6,643 bases of DNA from Gammaproteobacteria bacterium. GTDB taxonomy: Bacteria; Pseudomonadota; Gammaproteobacteria; Pseudomonadales; Azotimanducaceae. The position numbers and the translations under genes are program-made. Below the pieces are notes generated by a model, which searched no databases, was not told the DNA's origin, and worked only from the letters and a program-made list of their open reading frames with translations. Positions 1-6,643 of the stretch are shown piece after piece. Positions within the stretch are counted from its first letter, which is position 1, and every line of letters starts with the position of its first letter. The stretch lies in assembly GCA_027295975.1 (NCBI GenBank), contig JAPUJX010000121.1, positions 1-6,643 on the forward strand. Direction: 5' to 3'.

Positions 1-957
1 CACTTTCTTGCCGATCATGTCGGAGTAAATGCTGCGGCCTTTGCGGTTGAAGTCCGCTTCCATGCCATGGCCGATGGCTTCGTGCAGGAGGATGCCGCTC
101 GGGCCCGCCGCCAGTATTACCGGCATCTCACCTGCCGGTGGGCGCACGGCGTCGAACTGGATCATCGTGCGAGCCACAGCCAACTTCACCATCTCGGCCA
201 TGCGCTCGCTGGTATACCAGTCGAAATCGTTGCGCGCGGCGATGTTGGCGGACCCGGATTGCGAAGCACCATTTCTGGTTGCGGTGACGGAAGCACTGAG
301 ACGGGTCATGGGCCGATGATCCACAATCAACTGTCCGTCAAGCGTTGCAATCAACACTCGATCATCCGAGTCCATCCAGCCGACCGACACTTTTTTGACC
401 CTCGGATCGGACGACCGCGCGAGCTTATCGACTTGCCGCAGAAGCGGCAGCTTTTGATCTATTCCCACATCCGTCCACGGCACACGGACGGTGTAGAGGT
501 CACCCGTTCCGAGCGGGTTAAAAGCCTGAGGTACGGTCACTTTGCCGCTTTTTGCTATCGTTGCCGCGGTTCTCGCCGCGGCCAGCATCGAAGGCAGGGT
601 CAGATCTTCGCTGAAGGCATAACCGGTCTGATCGCCCACGACTACCCGCAATCCAACACCCTGCTGGATATTGGTATTAGCCCGATTGACGAGGCTATCT
701 TCCATCCTGAGGTTGGTGGTGCGAGTGTGCTGAAAATACAGCTCCGCCGTATCCGCCCCGTTTGCGGTCAGCTCGCTCATCACCCGGGCAAGTATTGCCT
801 CATCCACGGCAAACCATTCGAGAAACGGGTTCGCGGGGGTTGCCGTGCTAACCGTTGTCGCCGGGTCAACACCGCAGCCCGATAAGAATGCGGGCATGGT
901 CAGCAGTGCCGTGCCCGTCACCGTATTGCTCAGGAATACTCTTCGGTTAGTCGCCAT
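1..957 (-). CDS. tldD: TldD/PmbA-family metalloprotease homologue with Tat/lipoprotein-type leader (3' end outside window)
   Basis: Reading the minus strand from ATG at 957 gives 319 codons with no stop before the window edge, so the C-terminus is missing (E. coli TldD is about 480 residues). The zinc-binding HExxxH motif is HEAIGH at residues 292-297 (positions 84-67), followed by GMEADFNRKG, a segment typical of TldD. Residues 100-120 contain the conserved N-domain stretch GVGLRVVVGDQTGY...SEDLT. In this family, TldD and PmbA/TldE form a protease that degrades unfolded peptides and matures microcins and RiPPs. The N-terminus is unusual: a twin-arginine-like NRRVFLS (residues 4-10), a weakly hydrophobic stretch, and a lipobox LSGC (25-28). 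This suggests export and lipidation, whereas E. coli TldD is cytosolic. The shine-dalgarno is weak (GAGTGG just upstream). The third metal ligand, a C-terminal Cys in TldD, cannot be checked here. The gene is divergent from the pilin operon and probably unrelated to it. Confidence 0.93.
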   Translation of the reverse strand, partial: MATNRRVFLSNTVTGTALLTMPAFLSGCGVDPATTVSTATPANPFLEWFAVDEAILARVMSELTANGADTAELYFQHTRTTNLRMEDSLVNRANTNIQQGVGLRVVVGDQTGYAFSEDLTLPSMLAAARTAATIAKSGKVTVPQAFNPLGTGDLYTVRVPWTDVGIDQKLPLLRQVDKLARSSDPRVKKVSVGWMDSDDRVLIATLDGQLIVDHRPMTRLSASVTATRNGASQSGSANIAARNDFDWYTSERMAEMVKLAVARTMIQFDAVRPPAGEMPVILAAGPSGILLHEAIGHGMEADFNRKGRSIYSDMIGKKV

Positions 958-964
958 GACCACT

Positions 965-1188: not shown

Positions 1189-1707
1189 ATGACAAACAAA
1201 TCAAGAAGAACTGGATTTACCGTGATCGAGCTGATGGTCACCCTGGCCATTGCAGCGGTGTTGCTGGGCCTTGCGCTACCGGCTTTCAACAACTTTATCA
1301 GTCAACGCACGATGACCAGCAAGGTCAACGATTTTGTGCTCGCGATCGCCTACACGCGGAGTGAAGCGGTGAAGTTGCGTACTCTGGTGAGCGTCCAAGC
1401 CGTTGATGCCACCGACACCGACAACGAATGGGGTCCCGGGTATTGCATTGTGGTTGGAAATCCCGGCGACTGTACGGGTGCTGTGCTCCGGCTGTTCGGT
1501 CCGCATACGGACATGACGGTAGATGCGATCGGTGCCGGATTTGATAACCAGGGTACGTTGAGTTTCAACTCCCGCGGTCTGTTGACGCTGGGTAGCGGCG
1601 GCAGCCTGCAATTGTGCAGTACAGACGGCGTCACCGATCCTGGTCGCAGCGCCGCAATCAACAGGATCGGGCGTGTCAGTACAAACCAGATCATCTGCAA
1701 TCCTTGA
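1189..1707 (+). CDS. fimT: FimT/FimU (GspH-like) minor type IV pseudopilin
   Basis: The 172-residue product has a class III (prepilin) signal: a short basic leader MTNKSRRTG, cleaved by PilD after Gly9, then FTVIEL with Glu at mature position 5, followed by a hydrophobic helix (about residues 10-32, MVTLAIAAVLLGLALPAF). This is the FimT/GspH pattern, and the length suits the family. The globular part has four cysteines, in YC, DC, LC and the C-terminal ICNP, which could form disulfides. ATG at 1189 is chosen because GAGGGA (1179-1184) sits 4 bases before it; an in-frame TTG at 1177 would overlap that ribosome binding site and only adds four residues. The protein should sit in the inner membrane before assembly into the pilus priming/tip complex. 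As first gene of the minor pilin operon it corresponds to fimU of Pseudomonas aeruginosa; fimT versus fimU naming is a convention I cannot settle. Confidence 0.9.
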   Translation: MTNKSRRTGFTVIELMVTLAIAAVLLGLALPAFNNFISQRTMTSKVNDFVLAIAYTRSEAVKLRTLVSVQAVDATDTDNEWGPGYCIVVGNPGDCTGAVLRLFGPHTDMTVDAIGAGFDNQGTLSFNSRGLLTLGSGGSLQLCSTDGVTDPGRSAAINRIGRVSTNQIICNP

Positions 1708-1718
1708 TGAGATTAATC

Positions 1719-2237
1719 ATGCGACAGGTGAAAGGTTTTTCAATGATTGAATTGCTGGTCGCCGTTCTCGTGATGGCGATTGGAATTCTGGGTATCACCG
1801 CTTTGCAGTTGGCGAGCCTGCAGAACAATCGCGGTGCTTTGCACCGTGCCGAAGCCGTTCATCTGGCGTACGACATGCTGGATCGGATCAGGGCTAATCC
1901 TCTTGGAACGCCCGTAGGTCAGCCGTACGGCGGGTTGGACATGACCGATGTTCCGCCGAACACCAACGACTGTTATGCGGGTAACTGCAGCGCGGTAAAT
2001 ATGGTGGCTTTCGACCAGGCCGTCTGGAAGTGCTCTCTCGGGGCGTTCCACGATGAGAATACCTGCCAGGCTTTGCGCGCAGGCCTTGTCATCCCACTCG
2101 AAACGGATCAGCCAGGTTTACCGTTGGGCGACGGGACGATCAGCGTAGATGGTGGAACCGGCTTGATTACGATCACCGTTCAGTGGACGGGAGCGAACAA
2201 CGCAATTCAGACCGTCGTTGTTACCAGCCGCGCTTGA
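1719..2237 (+). CDS. pilV: type IV pilus minor pilin PilV
   Basis: The 172-residue product begins MRQVKG, then FSMIELLVAVLVMAIGILG, a very characteristic PilV N-terminus: prepilin cleavage after Gly6, Glu at mature +5, and a hydrophobic helix. It continues with TALQLASLQNN and an AYDMLDRIRANP segment also typical of PilV. Four cysteines cluster in the middle (NDCYAGNC, WKC, NTC), suggesting a disulfide-stabilised loop. Two starts are plausible. ATG at 1707 overlaps the fimT stop (TGATG) and would be translationally coupled; ATG at 1719 has a weak GATGAG element 7 bases upstream. I chose 1719 because its 6-residue leader is the usual PilV length; the alternative adds only MRLI. The mature sequence is the same. 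PilV works with FimT/FimU, PilW and PilX to prime pilus assembly and connect the tip protein. Confidence 0.92.
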   Translation: MRQVKGFSMIELLVAVLVMAIGILGITALQLASLQNNRGALHRAEAVHLAYDMLDRIRANPLGTPVGQPYGGLDMTDVPPNTNDCYAGNCSAVNMVAFDQAVWKCSLGAFHDENTCQALRAGLVIPLETDQPGLPLGDGTISVDGGTGLITITVQWTGANNAIQTVVVTSRA

Positions 2238-2251
2238 ATGACGACGAAGTA

Positions 2252-3379
2252 ATGAACCCATCTTTTCCTAATCCAACGTATGCAAAAAAGCGCACCGGTT
2301 TTTCTCTCGTCGAGCTGATGCTCGCCATGACGATGGGTCTCATCGTTGTCGCCGGTATCGTTCAGCTTTTTGTCGACAGTTCCCGAACTTACAACCTGGT
2401 CAGCGGCCAGTCGCGCATGCAGGAAAGCGCTCGGTATGCGTTGGATTTCATCTCGCGCGCATCACGCAACGCCGGTCACATAGGGTGCGCGCCGGAGATG
2501 GAAAACATCGTACGTGGTTTGCGCGGAACCTGGGAATTGATTCCGGAGTTCAATCTCACGCAGAACGTGGAAGGGTTCGAAGGTAACGACAACGGCACGT
2601 GGACACCGCCGCTCACCGCTTTACCGCGAAGCGAAGGTGGTGTGGATTTGAACGTTCACACGCCAGGCAATGGAATTGACACCAGTCTCATCACATCAGG
2701 AACCGACGTGGTGGTGTTCCGCACGGTGCAGTATCCCGGGCAACGTCTCATGACCGTTTTGCAACCCGATGGCGATCCAGTTGTCTCTGCGCCCGGGGGA
2801 GACCCGGGCTTTGGTGTCGGCGATGTGGTGCTTATCTCCGACTGTGAGCAGGGTGCGATGATTCGTGTGACGGGGCTGAACGTCGCCGGGAATCAAGCCA
2901 CGCTGTTGCATGCGACCGCCGCGACCGGATCGTTTTATGAAAACAGCGATGTAGTTGATGGTCCCATAGGAAGCGTTCCCGCGACCCTGTCTTTTCTTGG
3001 CCATTCGTATGGTGAAGAAGCGAGTGTTGGTGTAGTCCGAACCACTATCTTCTTCATCGCGCCGAGCACCGAGGCTAATAGTCAGGGAGTCGTTCCCGCT
3101 GCCCTGTGGCTGAAAGAAGGCATTGGCGCCCCGGTCGAACTCGTGCAAGGGGTCGAAGATCTGGAGATGCATTACGGTATTGATACCACGCTGACCGACG
3201 GAATCTCGAACGCCAATCAATATGTAGATTTCGACGACGTCCCCGATCCAGACCAGATTGTCAGCGTTCGCTCCACTGTCACCGTAAACAGTGTGGAGGC
3301 TGTTACTGACGACGGCCAGTTGTTGAGACGGACGTTCTCCCAGACGATTTTGGTTCGCAACACGCAACCGGAGGCATAA
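2252..3379 (+). CDS. pilW: type IV pilus minor pilin PilW
   Basis: The 375-residue product has the leader MNPSFPNPTYAKKRTG, then FSLVELMLAMTMGLIVVAGI, i.e. PilD cleavage after Gly16, Glu at mature +5 and a hydrophobic helix. It is followed by QLFVDSSRTYNLVSGQSRMQES and RYALDFISRASRNAGHIGC, which is the typical PilW N-terminal region with the R-x-AG-x-x-GC element. The large C-terminal domain is Gly/Asp/Val-rich and probably beta-structured. The length is above that of P. aeruginosa PilW (about 270 residues) but in the range of longer PilW proteins. ATG 2252 lies 14 bp after the pilV stop with only a weak GAAG upstream; the frame is open further upstream inside pilV, but that would bury the leader. 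The last codons contain GGAGG, which serves as ribosome binding site for pilX. Confidence 0.92.
   Translation: MNPSFPNPTYAKKRTGFSLVELMLAMTMGLIVVAGIVQLFVDSSRTYNLVSGQSRMQESARYALDFISRASRNAGHIGCAPEMENIVRGLRGTWELIPEFNLTQNVEGFEGNDNGTWTPPLTALPRSEGGVDLNVHTPGNGIDTSLITSGTDVVVFRTVQYPGQRLMTVLQPDGDPVVSAPGGDPGFGVGDVVLISDCEQGAMIRVTGLNVAGNQATLLHATAATGSFYENSDVVDGPIGSVPATLSFLGHSYGEEASVGVVRTTIFFIAPSTEANSQGVVPAALWLKEGIGAPVELVQGVEDLEMHYGIDTTLTDGISNANQYVDFDDVPDPDQIVSVRSTVTVNSVEAVTDDGQLLRRTFSQTILVRNTQPEA
2791..2809. repeat. GC-only 7-bp inverted repeat inside pilW
   Basis: GCCCGGG (2791-2797) and CCCGGGC (2803-2809) are exact inverted copies around GGAGA. They encode part of an Ala-Pro-Gly-Gly-Asp-Pro-Gly stretch. 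A stable RNA hairpin is possible within the message, but Gly/Pro codon composition may explain it. Confidence 0.5.
3370..3374 (+). promoter_or_regulatory. strong ribosome binding site for pilX
   Basis: GGAGG lies in the last codons of pilW. Seven bases downstream is ATC (3382), not ATG; an ATA (3376) is only one base away. This site decides the likely pilX start because the next conventional start codon, GTG 3442, is 67 bases away and would delete the prepilin leader. Confidence 0.6.
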
Positions 3380-3381
3380 CC

Positions 3382-3951
3382 ATCACACGTAACCCCCTTA
3401 GACTGACCCGTCCTTTCGGTTGCCCTTCCCGCAACGGCGGTGTGGTTCTGTTCATCAGTCTCGTGATGTTGCTGATACTGACGATACTGGGTGTATCGGC
3501 CGTTCAGACGACGATTCTGGACGTACGCATGGCACGCAACGACCACGACAGCCTGTTGGCTTTTCAGTCGGCCGAGTCGGCACTACGGGACGCCGAAGAT
3601 TTCCTGGACGGCGTTACGTCGATCGTGGACTTCACGAATACCGGAAACAATGGGTTATGGACGGTCGCAGACCTGGGAGATCCGGCTCGATGGGATGTGG
3701 CCAATGTGTGGACGGGAGCCAACAGCGTTGTCGCGGCTACCGTGGTTGCCGGTGTGGCTGAACAGCCACGTTTCATCATCGAACACGCCGCATCGGTCAT
3801 CCGCGCAGACAACGCCTATCTCATCGAAGATCCCTATGCATCGTCTGCGACTGATCGCATCGAGATCTTCAGAGTAACCGCCCGCGGTGTGGGGGGCTCG
3901 GCGAATTCACGTGTACTGCTACAAAGTGCCTACGGAAGAATATTGGATTAA
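3382..3951 (+). CDS. pilX: type IV pilus minor pilin PilX, apparent non-canonical start codon
   Basis: The reading frame encodes a basic leader ending RNGG, then VVLFISLVMLLILTILGVSA, then QTT...RMARN and LLAFQSAESALRDAE, the hallmark of PilX (compare the family's LAFQAAEAALRDAE). PilX is the GspK-like minor pilin, and such proteins often lack Glu at mature +5, as here. It should insert in the inner membrane and join the PilV-PilW-FimT priming complex. The frame has no ATG, GTG or TTG between the in-frame TGA at 3307 and GTG 3442. GTG 3442 would start at the hydrophobic helix and lose both the positive leader and the cleavage glycine. ATC at 3382, 7 bases after GGAGG, would give a 189-residue protein with a 19-20-residue leader; CTG 3403 is another option but lacks a ribosome binding site. 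A conventional gene finder would probably report 3442-3951. Identity as PilX is firm; the start is uncertain. Confidence 0.88.
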   Translation: MTRNPLRLTRPFGCPSRNGGVVLFISLVMLLILTILGVSAVQTTILDVRMARNDHDSLLAFQSAESALRDAEDFLDGVTSIVDFTNTGNNGLWTVADLGDPARWDVANVWTGANSVVAATVVAGVAEQPRFIIEHAASVIRADNAYLIEDPYASSATDRIEIFRVTARGVGGSANSRVLLQSAYGRILD

Positions 3952-3988: not shown

Positions 3989-3994
3989 AGGAGA
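3989..3994 (+). promoter_or_regulatory. ribosome binding site of the cadherin-like adhesin gene
   Basis: AGGAGA lies 8 bases before ATG 4003 and supports that start, which is followed by a good signal peptide. Confidence 0.75.
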
Positions 3995-4002
3995 CGTTCA
4001 AG

Positions 4003-6643
4003 ATGAAAAGTATTACCCACGTTAAATCGAGTATGGCGTCTGCTTTACTACTTGCTGCCTTCGGATTGGCGTCTCCTGTCTGGGGACTTCCTCCGATTGC
4101 AGCCCCTCCTGTGTCCAGTAACTCGTTCGTTGAAGACTTCGACGTCATGTTAGGCGACCTTGCATTCATATTCATGGATCCGGAAGGCGACACGATGACT
4201 TTCAGTCAATTAAGTCCAGTACCGTCTCTGGTTACGAACACTGATTTAGATCCGGTTACCGGTCTTGTTACGTTCAATCCGATCGCCAATGCTCATGGAG
4301 TAGAGGTTTTTGTATGGGAGGCGCGAGACACCAATGGTGAAACAGCCACGTTTACGTTTACGCTGACCGTGGTGCCGGTGAACGATGCCCCATCCGTGGT
4401 CGGCCCCGTGCCGGTTCTGGTTACCCTTGAAGGTACGCCCGTCAGCCTCGATTTGTCTGGCACCTTCGACGATGTGGACATTGTTACGGATGGTGACTCT
4501 CTGACTTTGACGGTTGAAGGCATTACGGGTTCTGTTATCGATAGTGCTGAGATGTCGGGTGCCAGCCTCGACCTAACCTTTCTCTCCGATCAGAACGGTG
4601 CTGCCACGGTCACCGTGAGAGCCACGGACTCCGAGGATCTATTTGTCGAGACGACCATCAATGTGACGGTATCCGCCGTAAACGACGTGCCAACCGTGGT
4701 GGGTGCAGCGGCTGACATGACGGTGGACGAGGACGATGGCGCGAGCACCAGTTTTGCTGGCGTGTTCGACGATGTTGATATCGCGACCAACGGAGATGTG
4801 CTGACACTGACTGTGACGAGTTTCACGGGTAGCGTGATCGATACCGCAACAATGGCAGGTGCCACTCTCAACGTTACGTTGCTCCCAGACCAGAACGGTG
4901 ACGCGACGGTGATTGTGCGAGCTACGGACTCGGGGGGGCTATTTGTCGAGAGCACGGTCGATTTGACCGTTGACGAGGTAAACGATGTACCGTTTGTCGC
5001 CAGCCCAATTGCGGACGTAACTACGTTTGAAGACGCGCCGGACCTTGCACTGGATCTTAGTAGTGTATTCGGTGATGTGGATATCGCGACCAACGGTGAT
5101 TCGCTGACGTTGTCGGTGGAAAGTTTCACCGGTGCAGTGATCGAGACCGCGTCGATGTCGGGGTTTGATCTGTACATTGCGCTTCTCCCGGATCAGAACG
5201 GAGCCGCTACGGTCACTGTGCGAGCGACTGATTCTGAGAATTTGTTCGTTGAAACCACGGTCGATGTGACGGTAACCCCGGTTAACGACCCGCCGACCGT
5301 GGTGGCCGCAGCATCTGACATTACCGTGGATGAGGACACTGGCAGCAGCACCAGTTTGGCAGGCGTATTCACCGATGTTGACATAGCGACAAACGGAGAC
5401 GTGTTGACCCTGACCGTAACGAGTTTTACCGGCAGCGTGATCGGTACTGCAACCATGGCAGGTTCGACTCTCAACGTTACTCTACTACCTGACCAGAATG
5501 GTTCCGCTACCGTGACGGTGTTAGCCACGGATTCCGAAGGCTTGTTTGTCGATACGACGGTCAACGTGATGGTCGATTCCGTGAACGATGCGCCGGTTGT
5601 TATCAGCCCGTTTGCGGATGTGGAGACCTTTGAAGATGGGCCGGACCTTGCGCTAGATTTTGCTGGCGTGTTCGGCGATGTAGATATCGCAACCGACGGC
5701 GATATGCTGACGCTGAGCGTTGGAGCGAATACCAATGCTGCGCTCTTCGACGTCCAGTCTTTTTCGGGCACGACGCTCACACTCTCTCTTGCGCTCGATA
5801 TGTTCGGAACCGCAGACATCAGAGTTGATGCGCGGGATACAGCCGGAGCAGCCGTTTCGGACACCTTCACGATAACAGTAACCTCGGTAAACGATTTGCC
5901 GCTGGCCGTCGATGACGTCGCCTTCATGAATGAGGACGACCCTTTTCTGACGATTCCGGTTCTGGTCAACGACTATCTGGCAGAAGAGCCGACAACAATT
6001 ACGGCTGCAGGAGTTGGTGGTTTCAGCGAAAGCACACCAACGACCGTGATAGATCCCTTCGGTGATCCGATCAGTGGCCCTAACGCTGTTATCAGAATTA
6101 GTGGATCTTCTATCGAATACGAACCGAAGCCCGATTATTTTGGTGTCGACTACTTTACTTACACGATCACTGACAGCGATGGTGACACCAGCACGGCGAC
6201 CGTAATGGTAAACGTGTTGGCTGTGAACGATCCCCCGCTGGGCATCCAGGAGCGAACCTTCAACATGCTGGAAAACGGCGTGTTGACGGTACCCGCGTCC
6301 CAGGGGGTTTTTACCGGCGCGTACGATGTAGATGGCAAACTCCTCGACCCCTTAGGCAACGAAGTGGGTTCGCCACTCTCGGCAACCCTGATTCTGCTCC
6401 CCATCGCCGGCACGCTGAATTTCGATAGCGTTACCGGTGAATTCGTCTACACGCCGCCAATCAACTTTACGGGTGAAGTGGAATTTGCCTATCGTCTATT
6501 CGACGGGCAGAACCTCAGCCTGACGCCGGACTATATGGTGCGAATTACCATCAATGCAGCGCCGCCACCCGCCGCACCGCCCAACCCCGGTCAGGTGTCG
6601 GTAACCTTCAATCTCTCGAACACGCCACTCGAACAATCGGCGA
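4003..6643 (+). CDS. large secreted tandem cadherin-like/Ig-like domain protein at the pilY1 position (3' end outside window)
   Basis: An open frame of 880 codons runs to the window edge. Residues 1-28 form a Sec signal peptide: basic MKSITHVK, hydrophobic ASALLLAAFGLA, and probable cleavage after VWG. Then come about eight domains of 100-112 residues, each ending in a V-N-D-x-P signature (Asn at residues 127, 227, 327, 428, 528, 630 and 742). Domains 1-5 share a D-V-D-I-x-T-x-G-D-x-L-T-L motif, and domains 1-4 also DQNG-x-AT and ATDS-x-x-LFV. The acidic residues suit Ca2+ binding as in cadherin-like bacterial adhesins. Domain 6 (632-743) is of the Big_9 type (AVDD...VLVNDY...YEPKPDYFGVDYFTYTITD). 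Domain 7 (744-852) is a divergent relative. A proline-rich linker (854-862) follows, then VSVTFNLSNTPLEQSA, which resembles the segment before the vWA domain in PilY1. The gene sits 51 bp after pilX, where pilY1 is expected, with no terminator between. I infer a surface or pilus-tip adhesin; a PilY1 fusion is possible but unproven here. Confidence 0.85.
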   Translation, partial: MKSITHVKSSMASALLLAAFGLASPVWGLPPIAAPPVSSNSFVEDFDVMLGDLAFIFMDPEGDTMTFSQLSPVPSLVTNTDLDPVTGLVTFNPIANAHGVEVFVWEARDTNGETATFTFTLTVVPVNDAPSVVGPVPVLVTLEGTPVSLDLSGTFDDVDIVTDGDSLTLTVEGITGSVIDSAEMSGASLDLTFLSDQNGAATVTVRATDSEDLFVETTINVTVSAVNDVPTVVGAAADMTVDEDDGASTSFAGVFDDVDIATNGDVLTLTVTSFTGSVIDTATMAGATLNVTLLPDQNGDATVIVRATDSGGLFVESTVDLTVDEVNDVPFVASPIADVTTFEDAPDLALDLSSVFGDVDIATNGDSLTLSVESFTGAVIETASMSGFDLYIALLPDQNGAATVTVRATDSENLFVETTVDVTVTPVNDPPTVVAAASDITVDEDTGSSTSLAGVFTDVDIATNGDVLTLTVTSFTGSVIGTATMAGSTLNVTLLPDQNGSATVTVLATDSEGLFVDTTVNVMVDSVNDAPVVISPFADVETFEDGPDLALDFAGVFGDVDIATDGDMLTLSVGANTNAALFDVQSFSGTTLTLSLALDMFGTADIRVDARDTAGAAVSDTFTITVTSVNDLPLAVDDVAFMNEDDPFLTIPVLVNDYLAEEPTTITAAGVGGFSESTPTTVIDPFGDPISGPNAVIRISGSSIEYEPKPDYFGVDYFTYTITDSDGDTSTATVMVNVLAVNDPPLGIQERTFNMLENGVLTVPASQGVFTGAYDVDGKLLDPLGNEVGSPLSATLILLPIAGTLNFDSVTGEFVYTPPINFTGEVEFAYRLFDGQNLSLTPDYMVRITINAAPPPAAPPNPGQVSVTFNLSNTPLEQSA
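4687..5289 (+). repeat. two-domain higher-order repeat, copy 1 (domains 2 and 3)
   Basis: Domain 2 resembles domain 4 far more than its neighbour: by hand count about 80 of 100 residues are identical, including a shared VDED start motif. Domain 3 resembles the first half of domain 5 (33 of 44 residues), including a shared TFED-x-PDLALD motif. The period is 201 residues, or 603 bp. Confidence 0.85.
5290..5895 (+). repeat. two-domain higher-order repeat, copy 2 (domains 4 and 5)
   Basis: This is the second copy of the A-B domain pair. Similarity of domain 5 to domain 3 stops after LTLSV (about position 5721). The rest of domain 5 (GANTNAALFDVQSF onward) is a different sequence lacking the DQNG and ATDS motifs, so the copy is mosaic. 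Confidence 0.8.
5896..6231 (+). other. Big_9-type Ig-like domain within the adhesin
   Basis: Residues 632-743 carry the pattern P-x-A-V-D-D, an acidic MNEDD, VLVNDY, IEYEPKPDYFGVDYFTYT and DSDGDTSTATVMVNV, ending in AVNDPP. This is typical of the bacterial Ig/cadherin-like domain found in tandem-95 repeat proteins and RTX adhesins. It differs from the preceding repeats, marking a change of module type towards the C-terminal side. Confidence 0.8.
6562..6643 (+). other. proline-rich linker and PilY1-like pre-vWA segment
   Basis: Residues 854-862 read PPPAAPPNP, ending the repeat region. The next residues, VSVTFNLSNTPLEQSA, are short beta-strand-like sequence. From memory of the family, PilY1 proteins have a related S-x-x-P-L segment shortly before APN-x-x-x-x-x-DDSGSM, the metal-binding vWA start. 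The diagnostic DxSxS would lie just past the window edge. Confidence 0.4.

Follow-up and report, generated by a model that had tools for sequence, protein, structure and literature searches.

A minor-pilin operon of a gammaproteobacterium probably encodes a PilY1 with eight cadherin-like domains ahead of its vWA domain

Introduction

The N-termini of PilY1 proteins are believed to determine what a type IV pilus adheres to and how surfaces are sensed by the cell. In PilY1 of Pseudomonas aeruginosa and PilY1.3 of Myxococcus xanthus the N-terminal domain is a vWA, which in P. aeruginosa is a force-sensing domain (PMC9210963). For M. xanthus, the C-terminal PilY1 domain has been placed beside the minor pilins, and the vWA of PilY1.3 has been proposed as a plug at the PilQ vestibule of the non-piliated machine (PMC7541494). 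Modelled tip complexes put the N-terminal domain of PilY1 at the ultimate tip and show strand complementation between PilX and PilY1 (PMC13190605). Here we describe a 6643-bp stretch of gammaproteobacterial DNA, the entire contig JAPUJX010000121.1 (the window; contig C26), in which a long open frame at 4003-6643 (+) follows four minor-pilin genes and appears to add a cadherin-like stalk before the vWA.

Several described systems resemble this locus in part. M. xanthus PilY1.1 and PilY1.2 are also PilY1 proteins with an alternative N-terminal module, but they carry DUF4114 instead of vWA, and the available text of their description mentions no tandem cadherin-like stalk (PMC13190605). Acinetobacter ComC is a tip adhesin whose N-terminal layout depends on lineage; its peculiarity, in the available account, is a finger-like protrusion within the vWA and no added stalk (PMC10374093). 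The giant adhesins BapP, LapA and SiiE share cadherin-like and Big_9 repeats with the window protein, and calcium-stiffened extender domains have been described in RTX adhesins and proposed for BapP (PMC12153261); these are not pilus tip proteins, whereas here the extender would be fused to the tip protein of a retractable pilus. Eukaryotic cadherins, CDH23 and PCDH15 included, have in common with it the predicted EC-type fold and acidic positions at domain boundaries, but the window protein is bacterial, has no membrane anchor that we could see and is only 13-21% identical to the chains listed in our structure search. A 2026 comparison of PilY1 proteins identified, in its available text, no conserved N-terminal domains besides vWFA and DUF4114 (PMC13190605), and we found no description of a cadherin-stalked PilY1 in the literature searched, a search outside which most subscription papers and preprints lie. 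The sequences themselves are already public, in database records that call them, for example, 'PilC/PilY family type IV pilus protein' or 'cadherin-like domain-containing protein'.

Results

The preliminary description of this DNA held that the gene after pilX began 51 bp downstream without an intervening terminator. The stop codon of pilX is at 3949-3951 and the ATG at 4003, which leaves a gap of just that length, and the terminator scan found no + strand terminator in it, its one prediction there being on the - strand; over the window such scans were uninformative (terminators, 5 found against 3.0 expected; promoters, 1 against 1.9). By Pfam, fimT/U-pilV-pilW-pilX stand directly upstream of the frame, which thus occupies the position of pilY1. 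The frame is divided as follows.

4003..6643, +, putative 5' part of a stalked pilY1, 880 residues, open at the contig end
4003..4086, +, predicted signal peptide, about residues 1-28 (hydropathy, sequence)
4090..4386, +, cadherin-like domain r1, residues 30-128, the first, with 24-28% identity to r2-r6; P0053 begins with a similar domain
4387..4686, +, cadherin-like domain r2, residues 129-228
4687..4986, +, cadherin-like domain r3, residues 229-328, 80% identical to r5
4987..5289, +, cadherin-like domain r4, residues 329-429
5290..5589, +, cadherin-like domain r5, residues 430-529
5590..5895, +, cadherin-like domain r6, residues 530-631
5896..6231, +, longer Big_9/cadherin-like domain r7, residues 632-743, stalk base
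6232..6567, +, cadherin-like domain r8, residues 744-855, stalk base (Cadherin_5 stretch 741-843)
6568..6642, +, Pro-rich junction leading towards the vWA (alignments; P0053 residues 661-720)

The N-terminus resembles a signal peptide, with a top 10-residue hydropathy mean of 2.48 (hydropathy only, rather than a dedicated predictor). Pfam reported Big_9 (153.3 bits), Cadherin_4 (84.8) and Cadherin_5 (66.4), all above cut-off, and the NCBIfam tandem-95 repeat NF012211 matched in 8 stretches with 183.7 bits against a cut-off of 90. A repeat profile seeded from window r2-r6 and iterated over database proteins detected all eight repeats, r7 and r8 only partly, with a weakest i-Evalue of 3e-8 in a two-protein search. 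Seven VNDxP linkers run across the eight domains, each of about 100 residues. The signal-peptide-like start and the cadherin-like domains are confirmed as real and not due to chance; the preliminary description had read a signal peptide and about eight such domains over at least 850 residues. Domains r2-r5 are mutually 57-80% identical, and r1, r7 and r8 are divergent. In a 16-row alignment 37 of the 44 invariant columns fell at window residues 632-880, the rows varying in repeat number, which lowers the invariant count in r1-r6. Neither in the window nor in P0053 did Pfam detect a further ligand-binding domain, and by sequence the stalk matched nothing in the PDB, where C259 matched only 3hx6.

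In order to place the missing C-terminus, the source genome (G000; 3.7 Mb in 680 contigs, 77% complete) was searched with the PilY1 profile PF05567, which matched two contigs. One of these, C259, holds a second operon, fimT-pilV-pilW-pilX-pilY1, followed by a PilY2-like gene running off the contig. Its PilY1 (1749 aa) has a predicted signal peptide, cadherin-like domains, a vWA with DxSxS and a propeller, and the window frame aligns to its stalk and ends just short of its vWA. The other, C482 (3321 bp), carries a further PilY1 of which just the C-terminal 917 residues are present, the frame being open at its 5' end; it is 52% identical to that of C259. The database protein P0053 (1919 aa) comprises six cadherin-like domains, a vWA and a PilY1 propeller; it is 61% identical to the window over aligned residues (413/674) and shares a similar first domain and the r7-r8 base, without 200 mid-stalk residues (two domains). 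The propeller scores 171.8 bits in C259, 147.8 in C482 and 140.2 in P0053, and the window frame is cut before the propeller region.

A comparison independent of C259 had as its targets 121 database proteins together with the frames of loci L005 and L038-L072. In it, the final 260 window residues and the C482 piece returned the same top three in the same order (P0053, P0061, P0064), and both lie collinear on P0053, at 420-682 and 1003-1919, C482 being 83% identical to it. The last window residue corresponds to P0053 682, which is 11 residues short of the metal ion-dependent adhesion site (MIDAS) at 693. Relatives run on from the junction into an NVLxxMDDSGSMDW-like MIDAS stretch, and the D, S, S and M of DxSxSM are invariant in 47 aligned rows. 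Since the best matches are the same and collinear on P0053, and since the frame stops just before the MIDAS, the window frame and the frame ending on C482 belong with high probability to one gene, of which the window holds the 5' part and C482, as we infer, the C-terminus; by arithmetic, the joined product would have about 2117 residues.

The preliminary description had left two branches open, a PilY1 on a long stalk or an independent cadherin-like adhesin inserted among the pilus genes. Under the latter, C482 would come from another, unassembled operon. The contig does end before any PilY1 domain, 23% of the genome may be missing, and some 320 residues (about 960 bp, estimated from P0053) between C26 and C482 were not found in the assembly: no contig spans the two, no exact end overlap of 10-199 bases joins them directly, and C259 residues 486-852, used as a query for the middle, retrieved nothing from the assembly beyond C259 and a 23-residue match at one edge of C482. 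With all 880 residues as query, P0020 also came first (653 bits) and P0053 second (605), the latter because it lacks part of the stalk; P0020, however, lists PF05567 as well. An inserted adhesin would not be expected to share the order of best matches and the collinearity on P0053 with C482, nor to have an r7-r8 base and junction peptide that are those of fused PilY1, nor to occupy the operon position of pilY1. Only two PilY1 loci, moreover, were found in the assembly, and the other (C259) has its own full operon. We therefore regard an inserted adhesin as highly improbable; the C259 paralogue, P0053, C482 and the 129 stalked proteins of the census below speak for the first branch.

An intact copy of the window gene was sought in 74 named loci of relatives, counted without family assignment, but none was nearer to C482 than P0053, P0064 and P0061; the nearest locus in the tree is L073. 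As judged by the same profile, the window genome has two distinct stalked pilY1 operons with eight (C26/C482) and four (C259) repeats, which suggests alternative pilus tips.

Cadherin-like repeats fused N-terminally to PilY1 were looked for in other genomes, as had been proposed, and many members of one gammaproteobacterial family carry them. A census of 229 rows, after removal of 34 copies or contained pieces and 25 open ends, gave 170 distinct PilY1 proteins, 153 of which have DxSxSM before the propeller. The remaining 17 were set aside for lack of this motif; some of them carry repeats (L053, L073, L118, L137), and for L073 and L137 a split into repeats before and after the MIDAS is not meaningful. 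The MIDAS lies at residue 272-2690 (median 902) in 129/153, all with at least one cadherin-like repeat and 111 with three or more, and a hydrophobic stretch within the first 50 residues was seen in 118 of these stalked proteins. It lies at residue 2-82 with no repeat in 21/153 (47-82 in stalkless census loci with a closed 5' end), and three fall between the classes. No repeat follows the MIDAS in any of the 153, and the length from MIDAS to end is similar, with medians of 1231 (stalked) and 1221 (stalkless). Because the repeats always precede the MIDAS and this length is alike, the stalk reads as a module added between signal peptide and vWA.

These counts have their bounds. The repeat profile undercounts very long stalks, with 8 repeats found in L098, whose MIDAS is at 2690. 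Database proteins were taken as deposited (P0120 and P0122 start at the MIDAS) and came from a search with a stalk-carrying query, so that the share of stalked proteins in the census is not a frequency; of the 120 proteins listed among 1815 matches, 113 have PF05567 and a Big_9/Cadherin family and 7 have PF05567 alone. Alignments were made on chosen subsets (10 loci and C482; 46/120 proteins; 15/120 proteins). In 11 of the fetched loci (L005, L040, L042, L044, L045, L049, L050, L052, L053, L054 and L056) all four minor-pilin genes lead into a long PilY1 frame that is closed; L053 has one recognised repeat and no DxSxSM. Two loci differ in other ways: L061 240-5684 (+) encodes a same-family PilY1 of 1814 aa with a different N-terminal part and no recognised repeat or DxSxSM, and in L120 7328-12747 (+), on a 4.6 Mb contig, a stalked PilY1 is split into two overlapping frames of 1378 and 447 aa by a frameshift or sequencing error.

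Giant type-I-secreted adhesins of the RTX/Bap type also carry cadherin-like and Big_9 repeats (PMC12153261), and an Aeromonas RTX adhesin (6xi1) stands at rank 48 of our Foldseek matches, so the repeats might belong to such an adhesin and not to a pilus protein. The window frame, however, starts with a predicted N-terminal signal peptide within a pilus operon, its full-length relatives carry the PilY1 domain, and Pfam scans of C259, C482, P0053, P0061, P0052 and P0004 showed no RTX family. We consider this origin extremely improbable.

A predicted model of the stalk (residues 27-629) was compared with known structures, and all 50 rows listed by VIA were cadherin-family chains. Acidic positions at domain boundaries, which we take to be those of cadherin calcium motifs, are present in window r2-r6 and conserved across repeats; the boundaries would accordingly be candidates for binding Ca2+.

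A FastTree tree was built from the loci and 18 named proteins, less copies and short rows; the outgroup does not form a single branch in it, and a number of long branches come together. Presence and absence of the stalk require 6 changes on this tree, or 4 without P0120 and P0122. Because five stalkless rows (L048, P0055, P0074, P0078, P0121) lie within the stalked clade, the stalk appears not to be essential for PilY1 of that clade, unless they are truncated models. This may hold for P0055 and P0121, which start in an apparent stalk-base end. L048, P0074 and P0078 have a hydrophobic start followed by the vWA, lie inside the stalked clade with support 90, and probably represent stalk loss.

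Close relatives differ in stalk length, as aligned, by blocks of domains. Identity between L039 and P0004 is 99.8% in the aligned stalk as well as from the MIDAS to the C-terminus, but a 203-residue block of two domains is present only in P0004 (net 183, L039 starting 20 residues earlier); the two-domain difference between the window and P0053 is similar, and P0061 differs from P0064 by one 102-residue block. Among 56 pairs at 80% identity or more, 29 differ by at most 23 residues and 27 by at least 86, with none between. Fifteen of these 27 are no more than 12 residues away from a multiple of 102, a quarter or so being expected by chance; the pairs are not independent and the unit of 102 was our choice.

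PF05567 matched in 42 of 58 genomes (G000 and relatives), with frames of up to 3176 residues in the family of the window, and in 0/14 control genomes. Distribution was surveyed with a stalk-base/vWA query (C259 residues 240-560; E 1e-12 in the class survey). In the class, 5/369 genomes matched; the match extended beyond the MIDAS position in the genome of the window alone, and the other four matched in the repeats only; among the 25 genomes listed, only G000 is from the window's family. In the family, 28/100 genomes matched and 27 reached past the MIDAS position, a single-sequence query that misses divergent stalks, as G003 and G023 are stalked yet unmatched. In the order (194 genomes), none of the PilY1 frames listed from outside the family exceeded 1692 aa. 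The records of the relatives are mostly labelled as Pseudomonadales or Gammaproteobacteria metagenome-assembled genomes. L142 (JABDRC010000312.1) is labelled 'Halobacteria archaeon', but its PilY1 groups with gammaproteobacterial ones and it is likely a mis-binned contig.

The genes upstream of the frame, in an order common to relatives, are as follows.

1189..1707, +, FimT/FimU-type minor pilin of the GspH family, with which the operon starts (PF12019 47.1 bits, N_methyl 28.8 bits)
1716..2237, +, PilV-type minor pilin (N_methyl 27 bits, Tt1218-like 34.6 bits)
2252..3379, +, PilW minor pilin (PF16074 PilW 33.4 bits)
3442..3951, +, PilX minor pilin (PF13681 59.8 bits, PF14341 53.6 bits)
3989..3995, +, Shine-Dalgarno-like AGGAGAC upstream of the ATG at 4003 (sequence)

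The FimT/GspH product is 63% identical to its C259 counterpart. At 1-963 (-) the window has a divergent TldD/PmbA-like metallopeptidase gene with three PmbA_TldD domains, of which the start of the contig truncates the third, and an apparent Tat-type signal with Cys. A small gene after pilY1, with relatives in many loci, is likely a divergent PilY2: in L005, at 1-327 (-), it matched PilY2 weakly, with 17 bits against a cut-off of 25, and a comparable piece in L006 at 215-478 (-) gave none.

Discussion

Taken together, the operon position, the eight domains, the acidic boundary positions and the occurrence of fused relatives both in this genome and elsewhere in the family make it very probable that the window gene encodes the N-terminal portion of a roughly 2117-residue PilY1, whose eight cadherin-like domains, lying before the vWA, would form a calcium-stiffened tip arm. 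Besides the incomplete assembly, the unjoined contigs and the first rank of P0020 discussed above, several observations weigh against this. The best matches of the window minor pilins (C259, L042, L044) do not help to place the operon, and 11/129 stalked proteins lack a clear hydrophobic start. VIA only re-ranks Foldseek matches, whose own list is mixed (nuclear pore, contactins, titin, protocadherins, E-cadherin), and the predicted template modelling score of the stalk model, 0.34, does not establish its overall shape. The acidic positions were counted on repeats from a profile that already favours them. Within the stalked clade there are the five stalkless rows; of the 27 larger length differences, 12 lie away from any multiple of 102, and repeat collapse in short-read assemblies could lead to miscounts and add to such differences.

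If the protein is organised in this way, its C-terminal propeller would, like that of known PilY1, bind minor pilins at the end of the pilus, with the vWA next and the stalk outermost. The modelled tip position of the N-terminal domain and the plug proposed for the vWA lead to this orientation, and also to a stalk lying in or through PilQ when the pilus is retracted; the window genome encodes PilQ and PilT. Cadherin domains are spaced about 4.5 nm apart. Calcium at the domain boundaries would then make of the eight domains a semi-rigid rod of about 36 nm, and the stalk of the longest relative would by arithmetic exceed 100 nm. Such an arm would carry contacts with surface, matrix or other cells past the pilus end and on retraction pass the load to the vWA, and gain or loss of domains would tune reach while the motor-facing part stays constant.

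The stalk might itself bind, its cadherin-like domains pairing across neighbouring cells or holding polysaccharide, such that pili pull kin or matrix together. CabC and CabD of Saccharophagus are cited for homophilic and heterophilic Ca2+-dependent binding, and bacterial cadherin domains are named as carbohydrate-binding modules in the reference list of the same source (PMC12153261, as available). The divergence of r1 and the lack of any other ligand-binding domain by Pfam in the window or P0053 would fit this idea. On the other hand, we identified no binding residue, and r2-r5 are alike and whole domains are gained and lost, as in a spacer rather than a conserved binding site. Binding by the stalk, which is compatible with an extension arm, is in our view possible but less than probable.

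Because a vWA that plugs the PilQ entrance would require the stalk N-terminal to it to sit inside or through PilQ, we suggest tentatively that the extension arm is never fully inside. The rod might protrude from the closed machine as a permanent, calcium-rigid feeler, which retraction would tauten onto the force-sensing vWA. If true, this would be a bacterial counterpart of the tip link, its length set by domain gain and loss. Stalked PilY1 proteins would also allow a test of whether the PilQ channel can hold part of PilY1 in the retracted state.

Many members of one gammaproteobacterial family thus place a cadherin-like extender at the N-terminus of PilY1. They offer naturally occurring versions of one tip protein that differ in length but keep the motor-facing part constant, and therefore a ready test of tip reach against calcium and force.

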